Shown one piece after another: positions 19,164 to 61,749 of a DNA stretch of 64,000 nt; positions within the stretch are counted from its first letter, which is position 1; every line of letters starts with the position of its first letter. The stretch comes from Beroe ovata. Its lineage: Eukaryota; Ctenophora; Nuda; Beroida; Beroidae. The notes under the pieces were generated by a model that saw nothing but the letters and a program-made list of their open reading frames with translations, was not told the DNA's origin and made no database searches. The DNA is taken from positions 462,836-526,835 of the forward strand of contig CAMPET010000009.1 in NCBI GenBank assembly GCA_946803715.1, in the 5' to 3' direction. Both the position numbers and the translations under genes were made by a program.

Positions 19164-21419
19164 TTACATTTTACCTATTTTGCAAGGTGAAGCAGATGCA
19201 TTCACCACCTTTAATTCCGTAGCTTCTTCTTTTTCTTGGTCAGGTGTAGGAGGACTAAGACATCTCCGAATCAACTTTGATAGGTTCTCTATAACTGCTG
19301 AGTTAAACATGGGATTTAGCAGGCTATTCGCTGGAATGATACAGATTGCAGTGATTTGGTACCATTCTTCTGGAACGTTCTTCCTGGTGTAGTTGTAGTA
19401 GATGATAGCTCCAATTATAGTGAGCCAGGGCAGAAGCTTTGTTCCAATCATCAGAATAACTTTGACCTTGAGGTGAAACTCCTTATCATCTTCACTGGCT
19501 TGGTTCAATACTTTTCTGGATCGGATGGAAACCTGTAAGATGATCATGTAAAAGACAGTTATTCCGAGGAGAATGCTGCAGACACAAGGAATGTAGACAA
19601 CTTTGAAAACCCCGAGTGATTCTTTATACCCGAATATGTCATTCACACAGACTGTGGACCAGCTGTAGTAGGAAAGCTCACTGAAATCGAAATATGACGG
19701 CTGGTTTGTGATTGCCTTCAATGTATCTATTTTCTGGTAGAGATCAAGATCAGAGCTTTTATTTCCGAAATACTGGCTATAGAGTCTGTGCACATGAGCT
19801 GTGGAGTGCAAATCCTCCTGGATGAATGGATTAGATTGCGACAGGGAAAACTTAACCCTGAAAATGTTTTGTATGCCATCTGTTGGAATGATTGGGATCG
19901 TAGAATTAGCTAGGTTGAGAAGAGCTAGGATAGCTGATAGGTTGATTATTGCTCGAATGGACATGCCAGTTGAGTATGTGAAGAAGCACTTGTGGGCCCG
20001 AGTGAGGCTCATGAGGAATACAGTGAGGAGTGAGCCGTGGGAAGAGGCATTGTACAGGACTCCCAGACACTTGCACGCCCAACTAGATCTCCATGTGTAG
20101 TCATGGATACAGTAGTTGCCATGGTACCTCCAGTTTGCAATGACTAGAGCCAAAAGATAGAATCCGAGAAGTGAATCATAGAGGCAGAGCTGCAGTTTTA
20201 ATATTCTATCAACCTTTAAATGCCTCGGCATCTTCTTCCAATCCGGTCTTATCTCTTTGTAAGCAGTTCGTGAGTTCAACACCAAGTTCATACCACACGA
20301 AATGATAAGCCAGGCAAACACCCCGTGGTTCCTGATAATGTATTCATTGGAGGAAAACATGCCTGATGAACAGTTAGAACACTCATCAAGCCCGTTGGCA
20401 CAGTCTTTGAACCCGTTACACTTGGCAGATTCCGGCACCCATACTATCTTACCCGAGCTGTTTGTGTCACAGTAAAACCGTCCTTCACAATCCATTTCAT
20501 CAGCAGAGTCAGCACAATCAATGGTCCCATCACAAACTCCAGATTCATGGATCATGTCAAGTGCCTCTGTCTTCCTGGGGCAAGCAAAGGCAATGGCCGG
20601 AACACCTCTATCAACTGGTATTAGCCTCTGACATAGAGCTGCTGACAACAAATCCTTGCACAAAGTAAGACATATTTCGGTGACATTGACAGCATAAGGA
20701 TTCACCATGAATGAAGCTGAATTTTCCATGATTAACTGTACACAGTCTTGAGTTTGCAGCTTAGTTTGTAATGAAGCAATCGAGTAGTAGAATCCATCGC
20801 AGGCAGGGAATCGTTTGCATTTTTTGGTTTCACCCATAATGCCTTGTTCATAGTGATCATTACACAATACGAACTTTGACAGTTTGTGCACTATAGGGAG
20901 TTCATCATCAGAAGGGATCCATTGGGTGCAGCTGAAGTCAGCCAGTCCATCACACATCATCTCGTCAGATCTGTCCAAACAATCGTATATACCATCACAC
21001 ACCAAGTTGATGGTTACACAACCAAAACCATCGCTACAATGAAAGATTTGCACATCATTGCCGTCCCAGCCGCACTTACACTCATCCATTAAACAAAATG
21101 AGTGTCCATCGCATAAATCACCTTTATCTATACCACAAAACCATTTGTCAGTAAGACAGCCATCTAGTATCAACTCACCTTTCATATCATAACATGTGGC
21201 CAAGCTAGGTCCAAATGGGCACTTCAATTTACCCTTACTAAAGTACTTTGCAGAAGGCAGTATGTCTTTGGTAGCCTTGATGTTGAGCGCCCCGCACCGC
21301 TTGTGCTCATGGGTTCCATGATATGCTAAATTCTCGTGAAACAGCTCCACATCAACAAATCTAGATGGACTTGATCCAACCACAAAGCTTACCATGCAAA
21401 TTAGTAATAATCCACGCAT
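19164..21419 (-). CDS. LDLa-repeat seven-transmembrane receptor (GRL101-like)
   Basis: An intronless 751-aa membrane receptor. The chosen start (21419) gives the signal peptide MRGLLLICMVSFVVGSS; a longer frame to 21578 does not. The ectodomain is Cys-rich with three LDL-receptor class A modules at about residues 124-156, 279-311 and 316-347 (CDGIYDCLDRSDEMMC, CDGTIDCADSADEMDC, CNGFKDCANGLDEC). Seven hydrophobic segments follow, about residues 362-707, ending NSLLNPMFNS, a variant of the class A NPxxY motif. The DRY motif is degenerate (SLTRAHK). It resembles LDLa-GPCRs of the snail GRL101 type; ligand and G protein cannot be told. A single exon suggests descent by retroposition, as is common for GPCRs. 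A short Ser/Glu-rich tail follows the last helix. Confidence 0.85.
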   Translation of the reverse strand: MRGLLLICMVSFVVGSSPSRFVDVELFHENLAYHGTHEHKRCGALNIKATKDILPSAKYFSKGKLKCPFGPSLATCYDMKGELILDGCLTDKWFCGIDKGDLCDGHSFCLMDECKCGWDGNDVQIFHCSDGFGCVTINLVCDGIYDCLDRSDEMMCDGLADFSCTQWIPSDDELPIVHKLSKFVLCNDHYEQGIMGETKKCKRFPACDGFYYSIASLQTKLQTQDCVQLIMENSASFMVNPYAVNVTEICLTLCKDLLSAALCQRLIPVDRGVPAIAFACPRKTEALDMIHESGVCDGTIDCADSADEMDCEGRFYCDTNSSGKIVWVPESAKCNGFKDCANGLDECSNCSSGMFSSNEYIIRNHGVFAWLIISCGMNLVLNSRTAYKEIRPDWKKMPRHLKVDRILKLQLCLYDSLLGFYLLALVIANWRYHGNYCIHDYTWRSSWACKCLGVLYNASSHGSLLTVFLMSLTRAHKCFFTYSTGMSIRAIINLSAILALLNLANSTIPIIPTDGIQNIFRVKFSLSQSNPFIQEDLHSTAHVHRLYSQYFGNKSSDLDLYQKIDTLKAITNQPSYFDFSELSYYSWSTVCVNDIFGYKESLGVFKVVYIPCVCSILLGITVFYMIILQVSIRSRKVLNQASEDDKEFHLKVKVILMIGTKLLPWLTIIGAIIYYNYTRKNVPEEWYQITAICIIPANSLLNPMFNSAVIENLSKLIRRCLSPPTPDQEKEEATELKVVNASASPCKIGKM

Positions 21420-23077
21420 TTTGCATAACCGATGGACCACGATCGCAAACTCGCCAATGACTGAATTATTTTCACTTGATGAATATAAAATTACTTTCGA
21501 GAAGAGACTGCACGTGCTATTTTTCTTCCAATTAGCTTGCGATAGCGCACCACGCTTTCTTATTGATTCAGAAAACATTCACAATCCTTTTCGTCATTTA
21601 TCTCACAGTTAGGGTCAACGTCTTTTGTTTGAGATGAAAGTCGCTTCATGAAAACAATGAACTAGAATTGACTGTTGAATCACAATGGTTGAAACACATG
21701 TTAGTTGAATTGATTTGGTCAAATTATCATTGCTCATTAGAGTCGCAGCCCGTTATACCTACTACTCAAATGATTGTCTTTCGAAACTGCAACAATTATT
21801 GCGCCACTCCAAAACTCGTGGTCATGAAAAGTGGGGGAAGATGCGAAGTTTTGTGAAGCAGAAATGTTCCATAATATGATTTATTTTATATTATGTCAAG
21901 TTAAATCAGAGATGGCAAAAGAACTAGAGAAGCTGATGCGACGGATTCTTCACTAAAGTGCAACACACATATTGAGCCTATTACAATTATAATAAGATAA
22001 TAGTAGGTGTGCGCAAGTTTGCAACACTGCCCGCATGTCTGACGTCCGTTTCATCTTTTCTTGACTAAGCACAACCATCATGAGGCTTTCAAACTGTTTT
22101 GAATGAAATTTGCAGCCGCATATTGTCTAGCTGAGTGGATGCATAGTACAGCAGTACAGCACAACAGCAGAAATCCAAGCAGCTATTCTTGGTTTGAAGC
22201 TTGTATCATGATCCCTCTGAAAGCATAAAAAATCTACGACGGGTTTTGCAAGTTTAGTGTTTATTAACAGAGTAATGAGTAATAGGTGCCTATGCCATAT
22301 TGCCATAATTATTATAGGAAACAGAATGAATCAAGTTCTATGAAGTTACTTCATATAACATGATTCATTCTGAATCATTCCGAAAGCATACTTGATTCAT
22401 ATACTTCATTGAAGTAATGAATCAATATGCTTTCGGGTTTTTTTTATTGCAAGTTTTCATTGAATTGCAGTAGAATGAAGGACTGGATTATGTTTATTAA
22501 GGATATATTTATTCATTATTTTGAGCCTTTCTGTATCAAGAGCTGTTCCGTTTGACACATTTATTACTAGTAAGGTATCAATGTTTTTAGTATTTACTAT
22601 TTTTACTTACAAATAATTAATTTTGTAGATGCGATATCCAAATACTCAAATATAGTAATATTATGAATTTTGTAGAAACATTTAGGATGAAGTTATTAAA
22701 TGTCTATGATTCTATTAGATTTGTGAACAGAACTATAGGTATTTAGAGAATGCGGTTCGAGTAAAATAGTGTTACCTATATTAGTGGGAGTGGTGTCAGT
22801 AGAATAGTGGTACCTATCAGCGAGCTAGTGGTGTCAGCAAGTGTTCATGACAGTAGGAGTGGTGTCAGGGAGACTAGTGTCAGCATACTCAGCAATAGTG
22901 GTTTCAATGAGAGTTCTCTCCTCTTGTAAAGTTAAAAAAGTTATAAAAAACTCTATACAATCAAATTTGAGATTTATGTCGTATGATTATGATTCATGAC
23001 AGATGAATTGAAATATTCTCACATCTTCTAGCTATGGTGTCCCGTCCCTGTCTCCCAATTATGGCTTAGTAATTGGA
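21420..23077. other. Divergent intergenic region, receptor (-) / UBR5 (+)
   Basis: No gene found in about 1.65 kb. It contains two adjacent hairpins (22325-22371, 22379-22437) and, at 22790-22905, a low-order repeat of GTGGTGTCAG words. It should hold both promoters; I see no TATA box I would defend. Confidence 0.55.
22325..22437. repeat. Two adjacent palindromes sharing the core ATGAATCA
   Basis: The first, 22325-22371, pairs GAATGAATCA...TATGAAGT with ACTTCATAT...TGATTCATTC. The second, 22379-22437, pairs CCGAAAGCATA...TTGATTCAT with its complement and runs into eight Ts. They may be a degraded foldback transposon; the T run after the second stem would also suit a Pol III transcript. Confidence 0.6.
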
Positions 23078-34600: not shown

Positions 34601-37600
34601 ATAAACCGAAGGGAAGTTAATGGGCTGTCGATCTATAATTATTGATCTTTTCTATGACAAGATGATAGACCGTATTGAACCTGCCGACAACTGTGTGCAT
34701 ATTTCCCACGGGCTATAGACACTATAGACAGTAAATGATTCGGGCTAACAACTAACAAGGGGGCACCTCAGATTCTGAAAACTGCATTTACCATCTCTTC
34801 TTTTCAGAGTATATTCAGTAAGCTGGAAGAAAGGAAGAAAAGTGATAAGTCTGGAATCACCNATCTACAAAGTGTTGAGTAAGTGAGAATTATTGCTCAA
34901 TCTCCACAGTGTTGAGTAAGCCATGACTGTGGAGTCTACGACGTAGGTGGGCGTCGTCAGTTCCCCAGCTGACCCTTTACACTTTTACAGACCCTTATGA
35001 CGAGAGGGGACATAGAATCTTGAGCGCGTCCATGAGAATTCTATTCTATTCCTTTTCGATTCGCCAGAGACCAGACATTTGGTGGTTTTTATATCTCCTT
35101 AAATCCCGGTCTAGACCCCTAGCCTCATAAACACACCGTCGTCAGCTTTACGATAATTCACATAATTTTCGAAAGCGTCTGACTTATTAATGTTAATCGT
35201 ATCACTTAGATCAACATTTGGAGAGGGGATATTTTCAAGAGTCGCATAGTTACTTAGAATTAGAAAAAAATTTCTGGTATTCCTCTGGTTGCGAACTCAG
35301 ACAATTGAAACAGTGGTTAGTCTTTAGTATCACTTTGAGTTTTAGTAAACTTACTCTCTAACACACCGTATCAGTCCAACAGAAGCCGAAACACATGGTG
35401 AAGTCAGTGGGACGACGACTGTTTGACACCACCAAACCCATGACTGTCCGAGACAGGATTATCAGATCCTTCATGTCGTCAAGTGGACGATCTGGTGGTA
35501 GCTCCGCGTCCAACATGAGATAGTGAGTACTGCTGCTGCTGGAACTAGGTACTAAATCGTTATCAAGTACAGCTGTAATTACTAGGTTAGATTATGTGTA
35601 CTTCTATTCAACCCGCTTCAACCATTTTTCATTTTAAGTGGATTTAATAAGCAATCATTTCAAACTTCATAATGATGAATTTTCATATTTCTAAGAAGCC
35701 TTTATATTTCCTAGCAGTTCTAAGCAACAACAAGGTATCATATTCTTCTCGGATCCATTGGAAGCACGCCGTGCTCTAATTCAGATGGATGGATACGTGA
35801 TTCCAGCTAGAACCAACTCACATCACCGCACACGAACTAACAACCTCCTCTCCTATTCTAACCCTGGGGTGAGGATGCGTGTGCGGAATCTTGACACCAC
35901 TCTAATTTTGACACCACTCTCAATTTCGTGTCGAAATATCGCCTGATCCCCCCTGAGAACATGATATATTCAGTTTCACCACTTCCATTTATCTACTGAA
36001 GAATCTCATTTCTTGCCGAAATATCGTCAGATGCCCATTGTCGGTTTTTCTTGACACCATTACAATTAATCTCTCACACCACTTCCTTCATACCCGTTCA
36101 TTCTTGACACCACCCCCTTCTGTAGATTCATGATTGAATCTCTCTAACTTTAGGGATTCTTCGAAGTGTCAGTGCGGTTTGTGGCACGTGAAGTACGTGG
36201 TTTCTTCCTTACACCGAGTAAGAAGAAGAAGTCCCGGGTAAAGGAAGAGTTTGAGATGTCACAGGTAACCCGGGTGAGGGGGTGAGGGGTGGGTGAGGGG
36301 GTGAGGGGTGATGTGGGGTTAGCGGAGTGAAGTGGGGTGAGGGGTAGGTGAAGTGAAGGGAAATGAGAAGAGGTGAGGTGAAGGATATGAGGTGTGTCTT
36401 GCTTCCAATGATATGGTTTGATCGATCATACAATCATGCTTGGGGTTATTGGCCGATAATTTGATATTATAGCCAGTCTGATACCTACATCCACTTAGTT
36501 TAGAGATTGCATGTTTATGAATTATGATCCATGATAATTCCTCAGGAAAACTACAGGAGAATGCTAGCAGATTCCCTACTCAAAGATTACGATGGAAATG
36601 TCAATGATTTATCTGAGACCCCACTTGCTACCTTCATAAACGAGGTTGTTTGGGGTACCGGTATGATTAAGTTGCAAGAATTCGAAAGTTTGTTAGCAAG
36701 TTTCGAGTTCATTATATTTTGAGTGAGCATAAACCGAAGGGATGTTACTGGGCTGTCGATCTATAATTATTGATCTTTTCTATGACAAGATGATAGACCG
36801 TATTAATCTTACCGACAACTGTGCGCATATTTCCCACGGGCTATAGACACTATAGACAGTAAATGATTCGGGCTAGCAAGGGGGCACCTCAGATTCTGAA
36901 AACTGCATTTACCATCTCTTCTTTTCAGAGTATATTCAGTAAGCTGGAAGAAAGGAAGAAAAGTGATAAGTCTGGAATCACCTCAGAACATCTCCATTCC
37001 TCTCATAGACCCACTCACAGAGGTATGTGTGTGACGTGTTTGTGTGTGTGTGNNNNNNNNNNNNNNNNNNNNNNNNNNNNNNNNNNNNNNNNNNNNNNNN
37101 NNNNNNNNNNNNNNNNNNNNNNNNNNNNNNNNNNNNNNNNNNNNNNNNNNNNNNNNNNNNNNNNNNNNNNNNNNNNNNNNNNNNNNNNNNNNNNNNNNNN
37201 NNNNNNNNNNNNNNNNNNNNNNNNNNNNNNNNNNNNNNNNNNNNNNNNNNNNNNNNNNNNNNNNNNNNNNNNNNNNNNNNNNNNNNNNNNNNNNNNNNNN
37301 NNNNNNNNNNNNNNNNNNNNNNNNNNNNNNNNNNNNNNNNNNNNNNNNNNNNNNNNNNNNNNNNNNNNNNNNNNNNNNNNNNNNNNNNNNNNNNNNNNNN
37401 NNNNNNNNNNNNNNNNNNNNNNNNNNNNNNNNNNNNNNNNNNNNNNNNNNNNNNNNNNNNNNNNNNNNNNNNNNNNNNNNNNNNNNNNNNNNNNNNNNNN
37501 NNNNNNNNNNNNNNNNNNNNNNNNNNNNNNNNNNNNNNNNNNNNNNNNNNNNNNNNNNNNNNNNNNNNNNNNNNNNNNNNNNNNNNNNNNNNNNNNNNNN

Positions 37601-40600
37601 NNNNNNNNNNNNNNNNNNNNNNNNNNNNNNNNNNNNNNNNNNNNNNNNNNNNNNNNNNNNNNNNNNNNNNNNNNNNNNNNNNNNNNNNNNNNNNNNNNNN
37701 NNNNNNNNNNNNNNNNNNNNNNNNNNNNNNNNNNNNNNNNNNNNNNNNNNNNNNNNNNNNNNNNNNNNNNNNNNNNNNNNNNNNNNNNNNNNNNNNNNNN
37801 NNNNNNNNNNNNNTCACGCGTGAGTAGAATTGGGAGTGTACGGTTCCATAAAATATCACGCGTGAGTAGAATTGGGAGTGTACGGTTCCATGAAATATAA
37901 AGCGTATAGAATAAGTTTGTTACCTGGAAACAAAACGTCTTCACTGTTACGGGACTCGGATGCATTAGTTGTGATGATTATAGTTATTTTTTCAAGAATT
38001 TCCGTGATTTTTCTGCCGTGCTCACTGGTCGTTGTTCTGGTAACGCGCACAAGCGCGTGCACGTGCAGGATTTCCAGTTCTTGAGAAGATCATAGACTTT
38101 AGGAGGAGTGATGTTACTAATTCCCCCAGAGATAGATACAGTAGCAGTAACAGTGAAGTGGGTGGATCGTACCTGAGACGGTTACCACGCGTATTTTCCC
38201 CCGCCCACTATTCGACCTACGTCATGGGACCCAGTCGACCTTTCTACGGCATCGTGAGTGAATTGAATTACATCCGAATCAGTGGAATTGCCAAATTGTT
38301 CTTAGTTCAAATATTATCCCCCCTATTTTATACCTATGGTACAATATGATTGCCTTTTCCTGATTAACTAAAAATTCCTAATAGTAATTTTTCCCAAAAC
38401 CAAATGATATTTGGTTGTTTCTGTTCGCGGCATCTGGCGTTCTTTATTCTAAACTCTATGATATGAGAAAGAACGCGGCATATTTGACAGTATGCCGACA
38501 CATCACTAGAAAAAGCTGCAGTGTTTCTGCACGTGATGTGGCGGCAGTCTGTCAAATATGCCGCGTTCTTTCTCATATCATAGAGTTTAGAATAAAGAAC
38601 GCCAGATGCCGCGAACAGAAACAACCAAATATCATTTGGTTTTGGGAAAAATATCACTGTTTTTCAGTCCTAGAATAGTGAGATATTCCTCACTTTCATC
38701 ATATAGACGTTTCGAGTGGAATTNACTCATTGTAAATGAATAAGCATGAATCAGAGTCGACAGTTTAGATTCCTATCAGGGGAAAGGGGAAGCTGGGATC
38801 GGTGAAATTGGTGTACTTCATGAGGAGAAAGTCCGGCTTGAAAATCTGATAGAGTTTGTCAATGAGTGCAGCATCTAGTTGTGGAAACCATTCCTTGGCA
38901 TTAATTGTCGAGCTCTGCGTCAGCACACTGGTCCCATCGTAGGAATGAGGAACTGAAGTGTTGAGTTCCATAGCACGGAAAATCACATCGCTGTACTCCT
39001 GAGTATACTCCTGAGGGATGATATAGTGGTAGGAAGTATCGTGTAGACACATCGCTTTGGTTTGGGGCATGAAGTGAGCATTGACTTTCCCATTGTTATC
39101 AGCTATCCATTCTGCAAACTCTCGAAAAGTTGGCGTTACCTCCTCAGCTATGCCAGCATTCGCTAAAATTGCCTTGCGTTTCCCACTAAATGCGTTGCCC
39201 TGCTTTTTGACTATCTTATTTGTATATCCTGATACCATTCTAACCCATGGGTTCCGTATAGTGGTTAGCCAAATAGCGTCTTTCAGAATGGCTGCGTTTT
39301 CTGTTATGTTTAGCTTTTCGATCAAGTATTTAATTGAATATTTGTGGAAATCATGATGCTCTTTCCTATCTCTTGCAAGGTGTGAAATGTCACCATTGGC
39401 TAGGAGAAGAGCTTCTTTCCAATTGGTGTGACCTGACTTCAGTGTAGCCCTGAAGCAGGTGTTGATATTCTTGAAAAAGTACAATTGGAAGTCACATGAT
39501 GTGGTCAACAAATCACCGCTAGACTTGAGCTCAGCGATCCTCCTTTCAACGATGCCTTGCAACTTGTTCGGATCGATCGCAGTTTGTCCATCACCGATTC
39601 GATTTGAATGACTCTCGGATTGAGCCTGGATTGAGTCAAATATCTTGAATCCGGAGTGTACGAGGACGTTTATGAGGGAAGTGAGTAAAATGATGCTGAC
39701 TCCAACCTTAGCAAGCTTCCGTGATGACGTCATCAGCGATTCTAGCTGAACTCTATCTTAATGTATGTTCGATTATGAATTTTAGCGAACAAATCAAATC
39801 AATTAATAATTTAACATTTAAGTGGGGTATTGAGGAAAACCGTTAACCTAATTGCACTGGAAAGTGGAAAACGTTCGGAAAGCTGCACAGTGTACACACC
39901 TATGAGATAGACCACGACTTTGTACTAAGGGAATAGAATTATTCTATCGTATAGAATTATACGAACAAATGCAATGCGACATTATTCGGACCATCATGTA
40001 AATAAGGTTAAAAGATGGCATGATTGAATAAGCTTTAAAACCGGAAGACGAATATCAAGTAGGGAATGATTAAATTCTGTTTTTCCTCGGATTTTGCGAG
40101 TTTCTAAAAATAAATTGCGTTAGTAACTTAAGTTACTAACGCAATTTATTTTTAGAAACTGAAGAAGATGTAGAAATCGAAAGTTCTCTTGTGAATACAA
40201 TAGACTCTTGTTTCATTTGTTGAGCTCGCAAAATCTGAGGAAAAACAGAATTTGATCATTCCCTACTTGATATACTATGCGACTCTTAAATATAACCCCA
40301 CTCACACAACAGAAGACGAATACTTTATGGTAGGTCATGGAACTGCTGACCTAATGAGTGCCGTCGCACTCGTATAAGGTATGATCCTGGGTTTGGATAT
40401 CTGCGTTAAGAATTAACCGTCATCTGCATCTGCGCTTCACGGTTGGAAAAAAATTCTGGAAAAACGGTTACCTACCATAACTGGCAAAAGTCTTTTTCCT
40501 TGTGCACCGATATAATTTAGTGTTGTTCCTATCGATATTCGGCGTTTTTTGTCGAGAGATCGCGAGAGCTCCCTGGCGAATTATATATCTACCTGTAGGA

Positions 40601-47800: not shown

Positions 47801-49959
47801 ATAACACAACTAAGTGAGAGGTGTATTCATTTGAGTCAGTATTTCAGGCCTTATTTGTTGTGGATGTGACCTCATATCAAGCCATACGTCTTCATGTCTA
47901 TTGTCTGTTGATCACCATGTTCTAATTCCCAGGAGCAGACTTCTGTCGGACTCTATCAAATGTCTGCTGGAAATGACCCAACTCCACCCCGTCAACTACA
48001 GTGTCAAGTTTGACGGGGAGGAGGGCGGGGGCCCGGGTGTGAACCGGGGCTGGTTCAGTGTCGTGTGCTCCGCTCTCAAAGATCACACCAAATTCCCGGA
48101 CAAGACGTCCCCGTTGTTCCACTGCCCGGGACGACTGCCTGAACAGGTTAGGGATCAGCACCATTCACGATGTTTTGTATCCTAACCCTAAACCTGATTC
48201 TGGCCGTCTATGGTCGGTCTGCTCGGATAGAGTGTATATTTCGCGCCGATTCCCGTGCATAGGCGGTGGGGCGTCAAGGATAGTTCCCTAGTGCACAATT
48301 TCAATTTTCTCCAGGCTGAAAACATGGCCCCGCAACCCTGGGACCACTCCCTCGCCCAGCCACTCTACAAGCAGCGGCTAGACGGCTACAAAGCCATCGG
48401 CCGCTTCCTTGGTCTAGCTCTCTGGTTCAAACAGACACTACCCGTTAAACTGTGCCGCCATGTTTGGAAATTCTTGCTGGGGAGACGTCTATGCTGGGCT
48501 GACCTAGCGTTCTATAACTCAGACCTGTATGAAGGTAAAATACACATGTGACCTTGTGATATTGGGTAATTTCAATCCGTCACGAAGAAAGTTTTTTATT
48601 TTGCCAGATTTAATCTCAAAATTAATTCAAAAGTGAAATGATTTTGCTCTCTCTAACTAGATATTTCCTTGTGTTTGAACCAGGTCTCCGAGCGATGCTG
48701 AACGATGCTAAGTGGATGACGGAGGAAGAGTTTGTGGAAGTTTACCCGTGCACACTGGAGGTTGAGGTGAACGGACGGGTCAGGGAATTGGTGCCGGGTG
48801 GAAGTGAAATTCCTCTCACCAAACTCAATGTGGAACAGTACATCCAGGTTGGTCTTATTATACATGGGCTCTTTCATCTGGCATCACGGTCGTATTGTCT
48901 CTTTCTATAGTAGCATCTTGTTTCATTTTGCAGATTCTCATTCCAAATTTTCACACAGGGTTACTCTGAGCAGCTTATGGTGGATAGCGTTCTCCTCGAG
49001 CTGACAGCTCTGAAACAGGGATTCTCGGACATTATACCCCGACATGTGTTGGCAGGTGTGTGTGTGTGTGTGTGTGTGTGTGTNNNNNNNNNNNNNNNNN
49101 NNNNNNNNNNNNNNNNNNNNNNNNNNNNNNNNNNNNNNNNNNNNNNNNNNNNNNNNNNNNNNNNNNNNNNNNNNNNNNNNNNNNNNNNNNNNNNNNNNNN
49201 NNNNNNNNNNNNNNNNNNNNNNNNNNNNNNNNNNNNNNNNNGTGTGTGTGTGTGTGTGTGTGTGTACATATCCCCTGAATTCTCCTCCCCAGGTTTATCT
49301 GCAGAGGACTTGACTCTACTCCTATCTGGAGGCTGTGGAGATATCCCATTCGACAAGCTGTGTGGGATCATCACATTTGTGAACAGTATCGGGTGTAGCC
49401 AGAAGAGATTGGAGCAGTTCAAGCGATGGTTCTGGAAGATTGTCAAGGATATGACTCAGAAGGAGCGGCAACAGCTCCTCTATTTCGCCACAGGTATCTC
49501 CTGAGCGATCCGTAGGATAACTCCCTGACCTCTCTGGTGGTATTTAATCCTGCACCGCATTACAATCTTGCATTGAGCCGCGCGGATTGAGTCATGAAGA
49601 TTGTTTGAGAGTTTTCCTGACCCCTTGTCGATCGATGATAGACTCTGTCGAGAATTTCGTTGCGCGCGCGCGCGCAAACTTATTCTCGCGGCTTGCATCA
49701 GGGGTCTGGCATCGCCCGACAACCTTACCCCCATATCATGCACTCAGGTAGTTCCAGCCTGCCCCCTCTCGATCACAACACCGAACGGACTCGAGATCGG
49801 ATAAATATTACTATCGACATCCAGCACGACAGCAGGAATGCGCTGCCGATGTCGTCCACCTGTGGGCAGCGAATATCAATCCCTCTCTATAGATCCTACT
49901 CAATGCTCAAATCCAAGCTGACACTTGCGTTACAGTGCCTCACTTACGGACTTGGCTAA
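23099..49959 (+). CDS. UBR5: UBR5/EDD/Hyd-like HECT E3 ubiquitin ligase, 46 exons
   Basis: A giant E3 ligase that charges ubiquitin on a HECT cysteine. I could trace 46 exons with consistent phase, about 2652 aa against 2799 in human. The N-terminus MRIYTIEQKQ leads into an RCC1-like propeller; the C-terminus is a full HECT domain with catalytic Cys2621, 31 residues from the end, as in human UBR5. A second in-frame ATG lies at 23078. Exons are listed in the five segment entries below. Two landmark domains of animal UBR5, the UBR-box zinc finger and the MLLE/PABC domain, are not found where they should be, and no clear UBA is visible. Exons 25-29 occur twice in the assembly (probably two alleles). 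Intron 30 hosts three minus-strand genes. Introns are full of minisatellites. An acceptor-like CTTAG lies eight bases before the 23078 ATG. Confidence 0.92.
23718..24210. repeat. Two minisatellite blocks in UBR5 intron 3
   Basis: 23718-23900 is built from CCTAGATAACAGTAA / CAGTGACCTAGTA words. 23990-24200 repeats ACCAGTACTTACAACCAGTA and TACTCAACAACCAGT. Confidence 0.85.
26855..26935. repeat. TAGGTTGCTATGAT minisatellite, UBR5 intron 10
   Basis: About five short tandem copies, starting two bases after the splice donor. Confidence 0.8.
27215..27430. repeat. GATGACTGATGTTTGAT-type minisatellite, UBR5 intron 11
   Basis: Degenerate tandem repeats of GATGACTGATG(T/C)(T/G)TGATGATG. The start lies just after the donor of exon 11. 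Confidence 0.8.
27857..28390. repeat. Minisatellite made from the end of UBR5 exon 12 plus its donor
   Basis: Five diverged copies, starting near 27857, 27990, 28119, 28231 and 28320. Each holds a stretch from GTTATTGTCCGCCTCTGTGA to CTGCTGATGTTAGT; they are separated by GTGATGTTAGTCTG-type filler. The first copy is the coding 3' end of exon 12 and its splice donor (exon ends 27902), so all later copies carry a potential donor. Confidence 0.9.
28950..29068. repeat. TTAGTGTATGT minisatellite, UBR5 intron 14
   Basis: About ten copies of an 11-12-bp unit (TTAGTGTATTT / TTAGTGTATGT). Confidence 0.85.
29697..29818. repeat. 22-bp minisatellite, UBR5 intron 15
   Basis: Five to six copies of TGAACTGTTATACTCTGGTA plus TA, ending just before the acceptor of exon 16. 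Confidence 0.9.
30898..31116. repeat. CTAACATCTCA minisatellite plus copy of the exon 19 tail
   Basis: Repeats of ACTAACATCTCACTAACAT fill UBR5 intron 19. At 31071-31116 they end in a diverged copy of the last about 45 bases of exon 19 and its GGTAGG donor. Confidence 0.8.
32984..34861. repeat. First copy of a duplicated UBR5 block (exon 24 tail to exon 29)
   Basis: Near-identical to 34863-36982, including introns. It ends in the middle of exon 29 at a single N (34862). The second copy starts in the middle of exon 24. Such a join is typical of two overlapping allelic contigs placed end to end. Confidence 0.9.
34133..34245. repeat. G-rich GGTGAGGG repeat beside the exon 27 donor
   Basis: Immediately after the exon 27 donor the intron repeats GGTGAGGGGGTGAGG, with at least four runs of three or more Gs in 40 bases: a G-quadruplex-capable stretch that also contains many GTGAG donor look-alikes. 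The second copy has the same at 36265-36360. Confidence 0.8.
34863..36982. repeat. Second copy of the duplicated UBR5 block
   Basis: It carries all of exons 25-29 and continues into the exon 29 end. Against the first copy it has an insertion (35208-35335), an expanded stretch of TTGACACCAC words (36030-36130), and mostly synonymous coding differences. Confidence 0.9.
35208..35335. mobile_element. Short transposon-like insertion with target-site duplication
   Basis: Present only in the second copy of the duplicated block. It is flanked by GTATCACTT on both sides (35199-35207 and 35327-35335); the empty site in the first copy has one GTATCACTT. Inside are CAAGAGTCGCATAG and a CCTCTGGTTGCGAACTCA stretch related to the element at 40052-40274. 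Confidence 0.75.
37053..37813. other. Assembly gap (761 N)
   Basis: Preceded by a TG run directly behind the exon 29 donor. The UBR5 phases on both sides match (phase 1), so no coding exon needs to be missing, though one of in-phase length could be. Confidence 0.99.
37814..37898. repeat. 47-bp tandem duplication after the gap
   Basis: Two copies of a unit starting TCACGCGTGAGTAGAATTGG. The gap may hold more copies. Confidence 0.8.
38388..38651. mobile_element. 264-bp foldback element with arms of about 120 bp
   Basis: The left arm (38388-38507) starts TTTTTCCCAAAACCAAATGA. The right arm (38533-38651) is its reverse complement with few mismatches, leaving a loop of about 25 bp. TA dinucleotides lie at or next to both ends. 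It has no coding capacity and sits in UBR5 intron 30. It looks like a recent non-autonomous inverted-repeat transposon; its RNA would fold into one long hairpin. Confidence 0.75.
38765..39733 (-). CDS. Golgi carbohydrate sulfotransferase (CHST8-14/HNK-1ST family)
   Basis: A 322-aa intronless type II membrane protein on the minus strand, nested in UBR5 intron 30. A short cytoplasmic tail and a signal anchor (residues about 9-26) are followed by a luminal sulfotransferase domain. The PAPS-binding motifs are visible: the 5'-phosphosulfate loop LKSGHTNWKEALL (98-110) and the 3'-phosphate motif RNPWVRMVSGYTNK (160-173). HFMPQTKAMC (220-229) and the terminal FLLMKYTNF match the family ends. It would transfer sulfate from PAPS to glycan hydroxyls in the Golgi; the acceptor sugar cannot be read from sequence. 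The stop codon is at the low-coordinate end. Confidence 0.88.
   Translation of the reverse strand: MTSSRKLAKVGVSIILLTSLINVLVHSGFKIFDSIQAQSESHSNRIGDGQTAIDPNKLQGIVERRIAELKSSGDLLTTSCDFQLYFFKNINTCFRATLKSGHTNWKEALLLANGDISHLARDRKEHHDFHKYSIKYLIEKLNITENAAILKDAIWLTTIRNPWVRMVSGYTNKIVKKQGNAFSGKRKAILANAGIAEEVTPTFREFAEWIADNNGKVNAHFMPQTKAMCLHDTSYHYIIPQEYTQEYSDVIFRAMELNTSVPHSYDGTSVLTQSSTINAKEWFPQLDAALIDKLYQIFKPDFLLMKYTNFTDPSFPFPLIGI
39734..40467. other. Spacer between nested genes, with an inverted-repeat element
   Basis: No exon recognised. It contains the 40052-40274 element. Confidence 0.6.
40052..40274. mobile_element. MITE-like element with 49-bp TIRs and a perfect inner palindrome
   Basis: The terminal inverted repeats begin ATATCAAGTAGGGAATGAT and end GGATTTTGCGAG; they differ at two positions. 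Between them, 40101-40158 is a perfect 58-bp palindrome centred on CTTAAG. No protein is encoded. Relatives lie at 51514-52290, and fragments at about 19008, 31545-31617 and 35226-35330. Confidence 0.85.
40468..41057 (-). CDS. Extracellular-type protein of unnamed family, 5' end missing
   Basis: A terminal exon of about 196 codons on the minus strand in UBR5 intron 30. It starts behind the acceptor TTCATTTCAG (41058) and needs one upstream exon, which I could not find; it ends at TAA at 40468. Six cysteines are spread over the domain. The blocks TNTIWTFKKTSTYLEVRCN and DKWTHDSTRFMFGDDTATSA plus YRII resemble a domain I remember from secreted marine-invertebrate proteins (pattern W.i.KT...l.i.CN...W...v..i.f...AS..YR), for which I know no name or function. 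It could instead splice on at the GTAACC inside its last codons. Confidence 0.55.
41058..42325. other. Spacer in UBR5 intron 30
   Basis: No coding exon I can defend, though the missing first exon of the 40468-41057 gene should lie here. A CT run is at 41855-41885. Confidence 0.5.
42326..42835 (-). CDS. Small single-pass membrane protein, function unknown
   Basis: 169 aa from MNGSEIFVIAALVTIS, or 202 aa if the upstream ATG at 42934 is used. A short N-terminus with an N-glycosylation site (NGS) is followed by one strong transmembrane helix (residues about 5-27), the basic stop KRKRTLPNG, an acidic helical segment, and a tail with three VLDTTP-like repeats encoded by an 18-bp tandem repeat. The third minus-strand gene in UBR5 intron 30. 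No family recognised. Codon use and the helix/charge pattern favour a real protein, but there is no independent proof. Confidence 0.45.
   Translation of the reverse strand: MNGSEIFVIAALVTISAIIMVCSFTLLLMLKRKRTLPNGLIMDLERKVESMIESSEINFEEFSESMETLSDKLEIAARRVIPKAVHVSHVGTDRMMPELITIGIQAGYDDEVKQEETEETNTAIVTTQDPVPDPTPVLDTTPVLDTTPVLDPSYPETSLITDGSPVSSS
43069..47450 (+). other. UBR5: UBR5 segment 4: Ser-rich, acidic and pre-HECT region, exons 31-39
   Basis: Exons 43069-43133, 43396-43455, 43585-43817, 44172-45050, 45168-45313, 45487-45864, 46087-46416, 46613-46790, 47027-47450. Exon 34 (879 nt) is Ser-rich, with a likely nuclear localisation signal SKRRRLDS. Exon 36 has a second basic patch (QKRKLAL) and an acidic stretch HDEEEISGDELTDEDSIHDD, the place of the acidic region of human UBR5. 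Exon 38 (SYKHIVYIFDAMFYYV) matches human SLKHVAYVFQALIYWI. Exon 39 contains PMATREQLFSS, equivalent to PNARKEDLFGR. Confidence 0.88.
47606..49959 (+). other. UBR5: UBR5 segment 5: HECT domain, exons 40-46
   Basis: Exons 47606-47713, 47933-48146, 48315-48534, 48684-48847, 48959-49055, 49293-49493, 49748-49959. The N-lobe has KFDGEEGGGPGVNRGWFSVV and YKAIGRFLGLALWFKQTLPV. The C-lobe has LEQFKRWFWKIVKDMTQKER and SSTCGQRISIPLYRSY, with the catalytic Cys codon at 49861-49863. Human UBR5 carries the MLLE domain between the two N-lobe blocks; here exon 41 ends GRLPEQ and exon 42 starts AENMAPQ, so only about 20 residues remain. An N gap (49084-49241) lies in intron 44 and does not break the frame. 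Confidence 0.95.
49084..49241. other. Assembly gap (158 N) inside a TG run
   Basis: TG runs flank it on both sides (from 49056 and from 49242), in UBR5 intron 44, so it is probably just a collapsed microsatellite. Confidence 0.99.
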
Positions 49960-55930: not shown

Positions 55931-56509
55931 TTATTCGTGTTTGTATATCCTATATGTGCACTGGTCAGGTTTAGGTCTACACGAATCATTCTCAACGTCG
56001 TTACCATTCAGTTTGGGATAGACCGACCCTAGTCCGTAAGTTGCTGCATTAAGATATGTGAAGTACTCGTCAAAGTGACAGTTGTACCCCTTTATCTTGA
56101 CATCATCAACCCCTGACTCAATTGGGCCACTCCATTTGCTCTTGTTGTACACATTGAAGGGAGTATGGCTCCCACAACGCTGATCGGCAGGTGCACACAG
56201 TTGACACCACCCACCACATGCGCAGTAAAACCCAGCATCGTAAGCTGGACTGTACAGGACAAACCGGTCTGCGCTCCTCACCTCAACTCCACTGCACTTC
56301 AGGTGCTCGTCCTTGATTATGAACCGCTCATCACCGCCGGTGTTAGGTCTAAACTTGCAGTCCTCGTCTCGACCAGGGCAAGAGAGTGACCAGCCTTTCT
56401 GATCAGCACGTGTACTTACAATTTGTACTGTGTCCCCGAATCTAATGGTATCGGCATACGCTGATGATGCTAATAGTGTAGCTAGAGCTAGCGGCAACAC
56501 CGTGTACAT
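55931..56509 (-). CDS. Small secreted Cys-rich protein, unknown family
   Basis: 192 aa, one exon. A classic signal peptide (residues 1-19, cleavage after AYA) is followed by DTIRFGDTVQIVSTRADQKG, a cluster YCACGGWCQLCAPADQRC, and a C-terminal YNCHFDEYFTYLNA...CTYRIYKHE. About eleven cysteines in the mature part suggest an extracellular disulfide-bonded fold; the opening FGDTVQI followed by aromatic and Gly positions could be a beta-trefoil or similar all-beta fold, but this is a guess. No catalytic motif. A possible acceptor (CATATAG) ends five bases before the ATG. Confidence 0.65.
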   Translation of the reverse strand: MYTVLPLALATLLASSAYADTIRFGDTVQIVSTRADQKGWSLSCPGRDEDCKFRPNTGGDERFIIKDEHLKCSGVEVRSADRFVLYSPAYDAGFYCACGGWCQLCAPADQRCGSHTPFNVYNKSKWSGPIESGVDDVKIKGYNCHFDEYFTYLNAATYGLGSVYPKLNGNDVENDSCRPKPDQCTYRIYKHE

Positions 56510-57854
56510 TGTTGCTATATGACTGGGTGAATATTGTGTTTATGGTAGTGTGCAAAGATAGCGCTTCTTACAAATCTGGAGAATCAGGAAAGTTATAATG
56601 ACGAAGCCAACAATATAAAACCGCTCTAAAGAATATAGTACTATGTCGACGGCAAAAAACACTTGATCAGCACGGGACATTCGCAGTCAGAACTTTATGC
56701 ACGGCAATCGAATTGTAGTTCGCGTACTTGGAGTTGACCGGTCGTGACTTTGTGGGTGAGAGAGGGAGACATGGCGATCACGTGAGTTTGTATGCCGTTT
56801 TGCGATGATTGTTCGGCTCCAGGTGGGCTGAAGCCGTGTTCTCGTGAGATGGAAATCTTGATTTCGATTATTCAATAAAGGATGTTGAGACTCCCAATCT
56901 TATTTATAGAATGTTGAATAATACCTATAATGGAGATTGAGAAACACCTGAAGCACAAACATTGATATGTTCCGCCGAGCTCAGAAATTAAACAAAAACA
57001 GTTTCCACATGGAAACTCTAACTTGAAAATTTCATCATTAAAACTAGTACTATAGTGCGCGTAGAACCAGCTCGAGGAGTAATATCACTATTCACTGGCT
57101 CCCAGATAAGAACTGGTATCTGTCATCTGACACTGGCATTAAAGCACGTTGCACTCCCTCACTTATTTATTTGAATTGTATGACACAAGAACAATGTTAA
57201 TCAACTGATATTTATCATGATATTTTTATGATCTTGCAGTTGCTACACGTGGCACAGTTGTAGGATTACTCCCTTATCGGTTGCGCGGCGCGACGGGAGG
57301 GGGAAATCTTGCACGTGTCTTTCCGTGTCACTGTATAATTTGATGGTGGAGGGAATGCGCCGCGCAGTGATATGGAACGATATCGAAAGAAATTGGGAAG
57401 TGGTAATATGGAATGGTTTTGTTGCTTTATCCCGTGATAGCATGTATTTTGAACTTTCCATTACCATTGATTACCTGTATTGATTTAAATATTCAGTTCG
57501 AATTTCAATTGTTTCTCATTATAGGGTTGATTGGAGTGCGTACCGGCATATCCTCCTACTGTGATGAACACTATTGATTGACCGGAGATATATTCAAGTT
57601 TTAAATAAGTATAAAATGTTATAAAATACTTAATATCTGTTTAGATAAACGTTGCAATATAAGATACTGTCTCAAAGCAATAGAAAAAATGAGTCATCTA
57701 CAGTCCCTTGACACCGCATTGTAACCAAAACATTGTCACATCATTTATCAACAACGAATATTGCATGGATAAGGATCATCTCTTGACGCCACTCCATCAA
57801 ACTCTCACTGTGACACCACTCTCACCGTGACACACCAATCTCACTGCACGCTGG
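56510..57854. other. Intergenic region, no gene seen
   Basis: Between two minus-strand genes. At 57700-57845 there are several TTGACACC(A/G)C words like those seen in UBR5 introns. It should hold the promoter of the secreted protein and the 3' UTR of the actinin-like gene. Confidence 0.6.
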
Positions 57855-60800
57855 CTACCAACACTCTTCCTCATAGTACAAACTGTTTGAGAACATCATA
57901 TAATCCAACGCCCCGTGGACCGCATCCCCTCCCTCGTATTTTGGCATCCGCGAGATACAATAATCAGCCCTGTCTGATGGCAGCTCACGCCGGATATCCT
58001 CCTCTGTGATGTACCTCTTGTCTTTTGCCAGTACTTTGAACGAGTTAATCGTCTGTTCGGCAGTGTCTTGGTCACTTCCCTCCAGTGCTATGAAATCCCG
58101 GAATCCCTGGAATGTCACGTGACCGGTTATGTCGGGGTCAGCTATGAGGAGCATACGCTCGAAATCGCTCTGTCGTTCTGATCTCACTTTCTCACTCATG
58201 AGGTGTTCCTCTGTGTCCACGTTGAATCCCATGCTGACAAGACACGCCCGAAACTCGAAGTGATCAAGAGCTCCGTCAGAGTTCTTGTCGAAATGCGAGA
58301 ACGCCGCTTTCAACTCCAAGACCTGCTCGATAGTCATGCCCTGACTCTCCGTTATCAAGATCTGAGCATCCACCGCCGCTCTCTGCCGCTTGATAGCACT
58401 GTGAAGTTCGGCCCACGCCACCCTGATGCTCTCAATGGTGTGTTTAGTGTAGGGGTTGGTGAAGATGTCCTCCTCCTCTATCATCCTATTGACATCCTCG
58501 ATATCCCGATAATCTGATCTCTTCTCCTCCAACTCCAGCACCAGCTCGTCCAGGTATTCCAACTGATCCTCCAGCGAGAGTGCAGTTCCCATGGTGCTCT
58601 CGGCGATCATGACCGCCTCTTCCTGAGCCCACTCCATGAACAGACCAGCTTGCTCCCCAAACTCCTTCCTCAGCTCCTCCTTCTTCTTCTCTCTGATCAT
58701 AGCATCCTGTAACTGACTATCTCGTTCCGGTATCAGTTGTAGCAGCTCATTCCACTTTGAGCCCAGGGTCTCCACGTTGAAATGAGTGAAGGGGTTCCGA
58801 CCGAATGTTGCCAACGTGTCTATTTCTTGCTGCGCTTGCTGGATCTCAGTGAATTCTCGGTGAAAATCAGGCAGGCACGCTTTGAATTCCTCGTGAGCGC
58901 TCACCAGAGAGTTGACATCTTCGATACTGTGACACATGAGCAGATCCTTGTGATCCTCAATCGCACCATCCAGCCAATTGTTGAATGGACTTGCCTTCTC
59001 TGCGAATACCAGCCTCATTTCCAGAATCTTCTCCTGCTTTTCCCTCGCCTCGTCCAGCTCCTCCCGATATTTGGTCCTTGCCACAGTCAAATTCTCCCAC
59101 ATTCCATTCATAGCTTGTGTCCTGGCTGCCACCTCACCAGCCTTGCTGAACCCCTGCTGAACCATGTCCTGGGACAGGTTAGAGATCTGATCGAGACGCT
59201 CACGGTATGTCTCCACATCGGAATCAAAAGCGTCATCACTCTTAATCTTGCCCAAGAGTTGTTTGAGATCGAACTCATTGATAATGTCCTTCTTGATAGC
59301 TGATTTGGACTCAGTGATCCACTTAGCGAGACTATTACACTTCATGGAAAATCTACTGAAGAGATATTCCAGCCTGCCTAATCTGACCAACTCCTGGACG
59401 AGATGATGCTCTACACCCTGCTCGACCGTCTCCAGATTTTCCCACGCATCCTCAATATCACCAACAGTCCTCCCCTTCACCGGACTGAATGCTGGCCGGT
59501 TACTCAGCCACAAAACCGTCTGGAGAATGTTATATTCCGTTATCAGCCGCCCTTTTTCCTGTGTTTTCGGTGGCTTGATGTTCAGCCTGTACGTCCTGAA
59601 CTCCTCTAGTCGTGACTGCACCTCTGCCTTGCTCCCAGCTCTCTGTTCTCTCAGGGAGTCTACCCACGGCATCATGTGCATGATCCACTCTATGATGCCC
59701 GTGGCTAGACTCTGATACTCCTCCATGAGACCCTCATTCTCCTGATTCACCGTGAGGACCTTGCAGATCCTATTAGCAGCTTGTGAGGATTGTTGTGAGC
59801 TGGCGAAGTAGTGGTAGTACGAGGAGACATACGTCATGATGGCACGTTCATCGGGACGCATGGTGCTTGCAACCTCGCCCGCATCCAACATGACCGGGAT
59901 GTCGAGTTGTTTATCCGCCACCTCGAATGCCCACTCCAAGTTGTAGATAGCATTGTCCTTCCTCAGGTAGTTGTAGTCGAGGAGGTCAGGACGGTGTCTG
60001 TGTATGAGAGCACAGAGTGCGAGTCCATCCTTGAAACTTGTGTGGAAATTCTGGACATTGACATTCTTGTAGAGTGCTGTTTTCTTCTGACACCACAGGA
60101 GCAACCCCTCCTTCGCACTCATTTCCCAGCAGTATGACTCAGGGTCGATGTGGGAGAAGAGAAGGGCAAGTTCCTCCTTGTTTATCTTCCCATCCCCATC
60201 CACATCACAACTGTCCAGCACATTGCCCAGGGTATCGGCAAGCGAGGCTGCGCTCAACTCAATCCCGAACCGTGACATCAGATCACCCATCAGTAACATT
60301 AACTCGTTCCCCTCGATAAAACCATTCATATCGGTGTCGTAGTGGTCGAAAAACTCGCCGAATTCCGATCTGGTTAGTCTCTCTCCGTTCTTGATACAGT
60401 TCATGAAAGTTGGATCTACATTGAGCAGGAATGCCATGTCCTGCATCCGGACTTTAGACCCGACCCTCAGATCCAGTATTTCCACCACATTCCTTGTCAG
60501 TTCCGTAAGTTTTGAACGTGTCAGTTGCTGCGTGTCACATACCTGACTGATGATATCCAACATGAAATCGTGAATATCGCCAGCCTCCATCAACCCCGCC
60601 CGGAAGGGATCGTATTTCCGCCAGATTGCCGTGAACTGAGGACCCGAGATATCGGTTTGAGTTCGGAATTTGAATAGCAAATTCTCCTCGACGGGAACAA
60701 TTTCCGTGAGTTCCCACATTTCGAGACATGCGGTTGCGTTCCTGTCAAACTGCATGAGAACCCCCTCCGTCATCTGCTCTAGATCATCACGGGAAAAATG

Positions 60801-60992
60801 AATGTCACCCGTCACCATGAGCAGCTCCGCTAGGAACATTTCCAACTCTTTCCGAGTTAGGAATCCATTCCTCCTGACGTCATACCGACACCACAGCAAG
60901 AAGAACTGTTTGGTGGAGAGCTTGGCCTGGCCCCGGAATTGGGCAAGGAAGGAGTTCTGGTAACGGTTGAGATTGTATTCTTCATCTGCCAT
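57855..60992 (-). CDS. Calbindin-like hexa-EF-hand / alpha-actinin chimera lacking CH1
   Basis: 1045 aa in one uninterrupted exon. Residues 1-285 are a six-EF-hand module like calbindin/calretinin/secretagogin: loops at 38 (DVRRNGFLTRKE), 83, 128, 174 (degenerate), 219 (DTDMNGFIEGNE) and 263 (DVDGDGKINKEE); the last two look Ca2+-competent, and EENLLFKF at 103 is typical of the family. Residues 291-398 are the second calponin-homology domain of alpha-actinin (SAKEGLLLWCQKKTALYKNV to MTYVS). About 400-880 is the spectrin-repeat rod with NRICKVLTVNQENE and GRTVGDIEDAWE. 885-1045 is the actinin EF domain (DKNSDGALDHFE at 902, then a degenerate pair). The first CH domain is absent and the EF module stands in its place. 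Actin binding by CH2 alone is normally weak, so the protein may be a Ca2+-regulated rod scaffold. An intronless gene in an intron-rich genome suggests retroposition. Confidence 0.93.
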   Translation of the reverse strand: MADEEYNLNRYQNSFLAQFRGQAKLSTKQFFLLWCRYDVRRNGFLTRKELEMFLAELLMVTGDIHFSRDDLEQMTEGVLMQFDRNATACLEMWELTEIVPVEENLLFKFRTQTDISGPQFTAIWRKYDPFRAGLMEAGDIHDFMLDIISQVCDTQQLTRSKLTELTRNVVEILDLRVGSKVRMQDMAFLLNVDPTFMNCIKNGERLTRSEFGEFFDHYDTDMNGFIEGNELMLLMGDLMSRFGIELSAASLADTLGNVLDSCDVDGDGKINKEELALLFSHIDPESYCWEMSAKEGLLLWCQKKTALYKNVNVQNFHTSFKDGLALCALIHRHRPDLLDYNYLRKDNAIYNLEWAFEVADKQLDIPVMLDAGEVASTMRPDERAIMTYVSSYYHYFASSQQSSQAANRICKVLTVNQENEGLMEEYQSLATGIIEWIMHMMPWVDSLREQRAGSKAEVQSRLEEFRTYRLNIKPPKTQEKGRLITEYNILQTVLWLSNRPAFSPVKGRTVGDIEDAWENLETVEQGVEHHLVQELVRLGRLEYLFSRFSMKCNSLAKWITESKSAIKKDIINEFDLKQLLGKIKSDDAFDSDVETYRERLDQISNLSQDMVQQGFSKAGEVAARTQAMNGMWENLTVARTKYREELDEAREKQEKILEMRLVFAEKASPFNNWLDGAIEDHKDLLMCHSIEDVNSLVSAHEEFKACLPDFHREFTEIQQAQQEIDTLATFGRNPFTHFNVETLGSKWNELLQLIPERDSQLQDAMIREKKKEELRKEFGEQAGLFMEWAQEEAVMIAESTMGTALSLEDQLEYLDELVLELEEKRSDYRDIEDVNRMIEEEDIFTNPYTKHTIESIRVAWAELHSAIKRQRAAVDAQILITESQGMTIEQVLELKAAFSHFDKNSDGALDHFEFRACLVSMGFNVDTEEHLMSEKVRSERQSDFERMLLIADPDITGHVTFQGFRDFIALEGSDQDTAEQTINSFKVLAKDKRYITEEDIRRELPSDRADYCISRMPKYEGGDAVHGALDYMMFSNSLYYEEECW

Positions 60993-61749
60993 AATGTGTC
61001 CAGGATGAACTTTACTGAGTTGGGGTGGTTAATTTGAGAATGGAAATTGATGATACCAAAAAAAAGTAGGTTGGGAGGCTTAAACTTAGTCAAAATTCGA
61101 GGAAATGAAGAAAAAGCGTTATTGCTATATTAGGATATATCAATGCCCCTCAACTGACCCCCAAATGACCTTCTAACAGCCACTCATGGCCCCTACTAAC
61201 CCAAAACAAGCGCAACAATGTACATATATGCTATAAAAAAGAATGCTTCACAGAAGCTCAAGCGAAAGAATAATGACCAAAATCTTCAAATGAGCGGTAT
61301 CCTAAGACCACTATAATGTAAGCGCTTGCTATACACAAAATTCGACCAACTACTGATCCGTAATCAGACTATTGTATGTCCAATTGCGAGCTCCTACATC
61401 ATTTGATATTGTTATGTTTGGAACTGCAGTTCACGTCTGGTAATTAGGGACTAATTGGGGGAACTTAATTCGGGAGTTAAGTACGAGATTTAGAGTATTT
61501 CCAAACCATTTAATCTGGACACAAGCCTATGTAGGCAATCGTGAGGACTGAGGAATACACTAAGTAACGACGAACACTAGGTACTGCATACCATGTGCAT
61601 ATATAATAGGTGTGTTGTAACATTACACACATACAGAGGAAACTCCCTTATGTCAATGGGAAAATCCATAAAGGAGCAAACAGGAAATGGGAACGAAGTT
61701 GTTACAGCACCGCGTTCCTCATTATTCCCTCTTCCCAGGGACTGCCCGT

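Follow-up and report, generated by a model that had tools for sequence, protein, structure and literature searches.

Can an alpha-actinin exchange the first of its CH domains for a module of EF hands, and what might such a protein do? The question is raised by a locus in a 64,000-nucleotide stretch of the genome of Beroe ovata (NCBI GenBank assembly GCA_946803715.1, contig CAMPET010000009.1, positions 462,836 to 526,835 of the forward strand), here called the window, from whose first letter coordinates are counted unless a contig is named. An N-free open frame of 1045 codons lies at 57855..60992 on the minus strand, as do all features of this gene given below, and it joins a calbindin/secretagogin-like module of six EF hands to the CH2 domain, spectrin rod and C-terminal EF region of an alpha-actinin. 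The frame appears to be a real gene, and it represents a real, lineage-specific and conserved rearrangement of the actinin family, in which the head of one actinin has been swapped while a CH1-bearing actinin persists in the same genome. Ctenophores are a very early branch of the animals, and the locus offers a natural test of the role of CH2 without CH1, as well as a lineage-specific way in which Ca2+ sensing could couple to a spectrin-type rod.

Domain order of the fused frame

By Pfam and by alignment with alpha-actinin-2, the whole frame (57855..60992) reads as a six-EF module, CH2, four spectrin repeats and a C-terminal EF region. The Pfam matches begin with EF hands in the N-terminal part and continue with a single CH domain at residues 292-397 (E 2.1e-25; 59802..60119) that aligns with the CH2 of alpha-actinin, four Spectrin stretches (E 4.3e-34) and EFhand_Ca_insen at residues 974-1039 (E 6.4e-24), which corresponds to the EF3-4 lobe (57876..58073). 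Residues 288-1042 match alpha-actinin-2 from CH2 to the end with the whole rod aligned (E 9e-206). A neck conserved with alpha-actinin (residues ~401-440; 59673..59792) leads into the rod of spectrin repeats (residues ~441-885; 58338..59672), and the C-terminal EF1 loop, DKNSDGALDHFE (58254..58289), is canonical in the window protein.

The head was compared with calbindin, which it matches over residues 24-281 (E 4.9e-29, 105 bits; 60150..60923), and with a best chain named secretagogin, over residues 28-278 (E 2.4e-27, 99.5 bits); 105 and 99.5 bits are too close to assign it to one or the other. Its six EF loops start at residues 38, 83, 128, 174, 219 and 263, in the order of that family (loops 1-4 were positioned by eye from the calbindin/secretagogin alignment). 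The EF module meets CH2 at W289/E290 (60125..60126), a junction placed from the sequence, from the alignment with ctenophore actinins and from the point at which two related head proteins, P0122 and P0123, diverge.

The alpha-actinin family is thus recognisable in the spectrin rod and the EFhand_Ca_insen region, while in place of its CH1+CH2 head Pfam finds one CH domain. CH1 queries run by tblastn against the window gave a best E of 0.045, on the CH2 of the fused frame itself, and otherwise matches at chance level; a whole-genome search, which scores the best candidates only, placed no CH1 on C9, the contig of the frame, among the 36 matches listed. A preliminary description of this DNA had claimed one 1045-codon frame (60992..57855) in which a calbindin-type six-EF module (residues 1-285) precedes the CH2, spectrin repeats and C-terminal EF domain of an actinin, with the module standing where CH1 has been lost, and our results agree with it on each of these points.

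Relatives and descent

The identical domain order recurs in P0002, a protein from a 3608-base ENA contig, the whole 1046 residues of which show 85% identity to the window protein (P0001). The two agree at 272 of 289 positions in the head (94%) and at 619 of 756 from CH2 onwards (82%); within the actinin part they agree best in CH2 (99/111). The full-length search scored 7991 candidates and gave 3525 matches, of which the best 120 were listed; among these, P0003 (Mnemiopsis leidyi) and P0004 come closest of the actinins that have two CH domains. When residues 1-286 were compared with proteins of ~575-1829 residues, P0002 was the one match, and the head alone, compared with proteins of ~157-500 residues, gave two, P0122 and P0123, from other ENA contigs. 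No Mnemiopsis-named protein came up in the head searches, which may reflect either true absence or a gene model that was overlooked or has an unusual length. Since these protein searches find only relatives with exact five-residue words in common, absence of the fusion elsewhere cannot be read from them.

A tree of the shared part, with 22 rows drawn from 121 proteins (P0001 and the best 120 of the 3525 matches), unites P0001, P0002, P0003 and P0004 in one group at 100/100 against 18 other actinins. Judged from these sequences, the fused protein is of actinin-family descent and belongs to the ctenophore lineage. A single clade of P0003 and P0004 is not rejected (p-AU 0.321), and more than one placement of the fusion and the duplication within ctenophores is compatible with the tree.

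It is very improbable that the frame is an assembly join or a pseudogene. Scaffolding in this assembly does use N joins, and 1 kb of the 3′ flank of the gene sits on another contig, as would suit a join; however, the frame runs without N and without stops, P0002 carries the identical fusion on another contig at 85% identity, and the head is more strongly conserved than the rod. P0002, the tree and the intron-rich actinin with CH1 described below mark the gene as a ctenophore duplicate that has acquired a new head, and not as an assembly join.

The ordinary actinin and the loss of introns

The assembly (77.8 Mb in 534 contigs) contains one copy of the fused gene that we could find, and an ordinary actinin gene on contig C4 (829.8-851.8 kb) in 13 exon-like pieces, many of them with recognisable splice sites. 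Two of the pieces correspond to CH1 (P0003 residues 32-71 and 66-110), so that a more ordinary actinin, of the kind that the preliminary description had proposed to look for, is indeed encoded elsewhere; the CH2 exons, however, fall in a 7.4 kb N run (835555-842961), and for this reason the CH1-CH2 pair is not read whole.

Ten of the 13 pieces lie in the shared part, and therefore at least nine introns are absent from the fused frame, which favours an RNA intermediate. The earlier proposal of a retrocopy is borne out as far as an intronless frame beside an intron-rich parent goes, but the usual traces of such an event did not turn up: within 1.5 kb of the frame there is no A run of eight or more, although one run of eight T lies at -73. 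Nor does a direct repeat of at least 14 bases, with one copy on each side, flank the frame between 56800 and 62200; shorter or decayed traces are possible. The intronless state is also less telling than it seems, because the window holds other long frames (stop-to-stop frames of 631, 490, 804 and 330 codons outside the N run) and because the predicted photoprotein genes of Mnemiopsis are all described as single-exon (PMC3570280).

The coding frame is uninterrupted, as had been claimed, but the gene as a whole may not be intronless, since an acceptor-like AG follows a pyrimidine-rich stretch 22 nt 5′ of the ATG (61015..61016). From its sequence context, this AG is a possible acceptor for a spliced leader or for a 5′UTR (untranslated region) intron. 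In the ctenophore Hormiphora, a spliced leader is reported on 56% of Iso-Seq reads (PMC8527503); the Hormiphora spliced-leader core has no match in the window at up to three mismatches, and its 3′ motif has one at up to one mismatch, against 0.96 expected. Rfam gave no match in the window. At the other end of the gene, an AATAAA at 57166..57171 is a possible poly(A) signal.

Origin of the fusion

How did the EF module come to stand before CH2? One account, to which we give an even chance and which is compatible with any functional reading, is that an EF exon was spliced to a CH2 exon in an ancestral chimeric gene and that a later RNA-mediated step produced the intronless copy. It draws on P0122 and P0123, which cover residues 52-289 only (90% and 86% identity) and diverge directly after W289, with the tails GEFS-stop and GNVSKPQVVY-stop; by a genetic-code argument these tails permit G/GTGAGT and G/GTAAYG, that is, a phase-1 donor. 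This suggests, in other ctenophores, a putative EF exon, 238 codons long or longer, whose phase-1 end falls exactly at the fusion point. If P0122 and P0123 do hint at an intron at the junction, splicing may have attached the module while the gene still had its introns, and the contrast between the many introns of the ordinary gene and the absence of any from the fused frame fits this order of events. However, P0122 and P0123 may instead be EF proteins in their own right that truly end there; secretagogin chains also stop soon past EF6. In the ordinary gene, moreover, the boundary of CH1 and CH2 sits within the 7.4 kb N run. A spectrin-like gene, putatively a beta-spectrin, was tried as a guide to the junction and set aside: its matching exon begins ~10 residues earlier, at DITFETDN, and this boundary does not coincide with W289/E290, which tells against exon joining.

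A donor of the EF module was also sought in the assembly, where only weak matches occur beyond the window (26-46% identity, best E 3.7e-4). With P0123 as query the best match beyond the window (1.9e-7) lies on contig C42. A calbindin-like frame of 458 codons on that contig (L010:802-2178) was rejected as a close donor at just 23% identity. The same frame matches a calbindin in the PDB at 8.7e-18 and perhaps encodes a separate protein distantly related to the head.

Calcium loops of the head

The calbindin/secretagogin family has about four functional Ca2+ loops, a figure that the window protein does not reach: only EF5 and EF6 pass the loop pattern. EF5 (residues 219-230; 60303..60338) reads DTDMNGFIEGNE and keeps its ligand positions in all four sequences with a head, namely the window protein, P0002, P0122 and P0123; the loop pattern recovered it in three of the four and missed it in P0002 owing to the leucine at position 4. 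EF6 (residues 263-274; 60171..60206) reads DVDGDGKINKEE, is canonical in the window protein and is identical in the other three. EF2 of P0002 and P0122 fits the loose loop pattern, and EF1 is comparable in only two of the four sequences. The preliminary description was therefore right in counting two canonical loops in the N-terminal part, but they are the last pair of the module, and EF1-EF4 of the window protein are degenerate. EF5 and EF6 likely form a Ca2+-binding pair adjoining CH2, as their conserved ligand positions indicate.

Conservation of CH2 and of the actinin part

To what extent has the actinin part been kept after the loss of CH1? We counted alignment columns that are at least 95% conserved in the 119 other listed actinins and retained in P0003 and P0004, and asked which are changed in both fused proteins: these amount to 3/63 in CH2, 3/26 in the neck, 16/126 in the rod, 4/24 in EF1-2 and 4/33 in EF3-4, so that the neck and the C-terminal lobe are largely kept. 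Without the condition of retention in P0003 and P0004, the changed columns are 7/69 in CH2, 8/31 in the neck, 79/201 in the rod and 17/72 in the EF region. With 3 of 63 columns changed against 16 of 126 in the rod, CH2 is not decaying.

Six CH2 residues are reported to contact CH1 in human actinin-1, D217, M221, D234, K236, M239 and H247 (PMC8329775). Their counterparts D364, M368, D381, R383, M386 and H394 are kept in both fused proteins, and the arginine at the position of K236 is also present in the ctenophore actinins aligned. The pattern of conservation may reflect a partner surface that CH2 must satisfy, whether toward the EF head, toward the CH1 of another chain or only within its own fold.

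Proposed function and its alternatives

What could the protein do? We favour, with a probability of about 0.5, a ctenophore-specific second alpha-actinin that would serve as a scaffold responsive to Ca2+, or would modulate the ordinary actinin, and would not act as a bundler. A duplicate of the ordinary actinin would have lost CH1 and gained the calbindin-like six-EF-hand head; its product would form an antiparallel dimer through the spectrin rod, with the C-terminal EF lobe held against the neck of the opposite subunit, as the conservation of these parts suggests. For human actinin-1 it has been proposed that Ca2+ binding makes the C-terminal lobe clasp the opposite subunit's neck (PMC4895382). 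Each end of the dimer would carry EF5-EF6 joined directly to CH2, and putative Ca2+-sensing elements would thus stand at both ends of the rod, where Ca2+ could bind and act as a switch. CH1 is the main actin binder in actinin and beta-III-spectrin, and CH2 is described as its regulator (PMC5676748); the isolated CH2 of actinin and of utrophin binds F-actin with a dissociation constant (KD) above 1000 µM (PMC7442826). CH2 without CH1 would accordingly be expected to bind F-actin very weakly, and with CH1 gone a scaffold or modulator would be more plausible than a bundler.

Several observations weigh against this reading. EF1-EF4 are degenerate in the window protein even by the loose loop pattern, and the head may therefore be mostly structural; its fold is taken from sequence alone because the AlphaFold models, built from only four sequences each for residues 1-430 and 1-289, are unusable (mean pLDDT 44.5 and 39.2). 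In the C-terminal EF1 loop of P0002 a Q replaces the loop glycine, and the contig from which P0002 comes may be a transcript or genomic. Moreover, all five actinins aligned agree at the six CH1-facing residues, which may therefore persist for folding alone, and weak actin binding is not certain, because one CH2-like domain is enough for EHBP1 to bind F-actin at 9.3 µM (PMC7442826).

This last value is also what most directly recommends a rather unlikely alternative, that CH2 and the EF head together form a new, autonomous actin-binding unit and that filaments are still cross-linked. The fact that, of all the actinin segments, CH2 is the one in which P0001 and P0002 agree best (99/111) would fit such a unit; the KD above 1000 µM of the isolated actinin and utrophin CH2 domains (PMC7442826) and the location of two of the three actin-binding sites of actinin in CH1 (PMC8329775) would not. 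Somewhat less doubtful, yet still well short of probable, is that the protein works on the ordinary actinin by pairing in trans, either as a heterodimer through the rod or with its CH2 on the CH1 of the partner, and so tunes or blocks cross-links in a Ca2+-dependent manner. Here the same genome encodes an actinin with CH1 pieces, 60 of the 63 strongly conserved CH2 columns are kept in at least one fused protein, and all six CH1-facing residues are retained in a chain that has no CH1 of its own. Against this, those residues may serve folding or the docking of the EF head on that face, and over the shared part just two-thirds or so of the residues (497/737) agree with the Mnemiopsis actinin. We would go further only tentatively, since we think it unlikely, to a dedicated Ca2+-operated partner of actinin evolved in ctenophores, the CH2 of which either pairs with the ordinary CH1 or is capped by EF5-EF6; if true, an N-terminal Ca2+ control would open and close actin cross-links independently of the C-terminal calmodulin-like lobe.

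Surroundings of the gene

Directly past the stop codon of the fused frame lies a minisatellite with a unit of 17-19 bases (57801-57846). The 3′ flank beyond it (57035-57799) has a 98% DNA match at C176:140128-141135 (L036), which continues into an expanded minisatellite and then into approximately the last 32 nt of the fused frame. As a second copy of the gene this piece was rejected, as it holds just the 3′ flank and ~32 nt in 1 kb between two single-N joins; it is probably a misplaced allele. Downstream of the fused gene, an uninterrupted frame of 192 codons (55931-56509, minus) is cysteine-rich with a putative signal-peptide-like start, and it has no Pfam match at E 0.001.

The Pfam scan of window frames covered 10 of the 47 listed. 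Three of the four other long frames mentioned above carry a sulfotransferase domain (38765-39757, minus), leucine-rich repeats (9297-10769, minus) and LDL-receptor-A (19164-21578, minus), and a partial HECT ubiquitin-ligase domain lies in a frame at 48914-49504 (plus), beside the N run 49084-49241. The long open reading frames in several frames at 36863-37977 probably just reflect the N run 37053-37813.

Comparison with known proteins

The CH2, the neck, a rod of four spectrin repeats and, at the C-terminus, the EF region are common to the fused protein and alpha-actinin (Mnemiopsis ACHWQZ_G003356, human ACTN1, 2 and 4), and 497/737 residues (67%) of the shared part are identical to the Mnemiopsis actinin. 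Differently from alpha-actinin, the fused protein has no CH1, carries a six-EF module instead and is encoded by an intron-free frame. The alpha-actinin of Mnemiopsis, ML25062a, is reported to carry two CH domains (PMC13245172), and a study of plant actinin states that every actinin it analysed has the same domain structure, headed by CH1-CH2 (PMC8329775). The preliminary description knew of no described protein with the present order, and none of this architecture is named in the titles and abstract openings listed by searches of an open-access library, a scope outside which most subscription papers fall.

With calbindin-D28k and secretagogin the protein has in common the order of six EF hands over residues 24-281, but it is fused to an actinin and, in the window protein, only EF5-6 are canonical. 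Plastin/fimbrin likewise has EF hands N-terminal to CH domains; it differs in having two EF hands, four CH domains and no spectrin rod. EHBP1, unlike the fused protein, has neither an actinin rod nor an EF module. What EHBP1 does share with it is a CH2-type domain without CH1 (PMC7442826).

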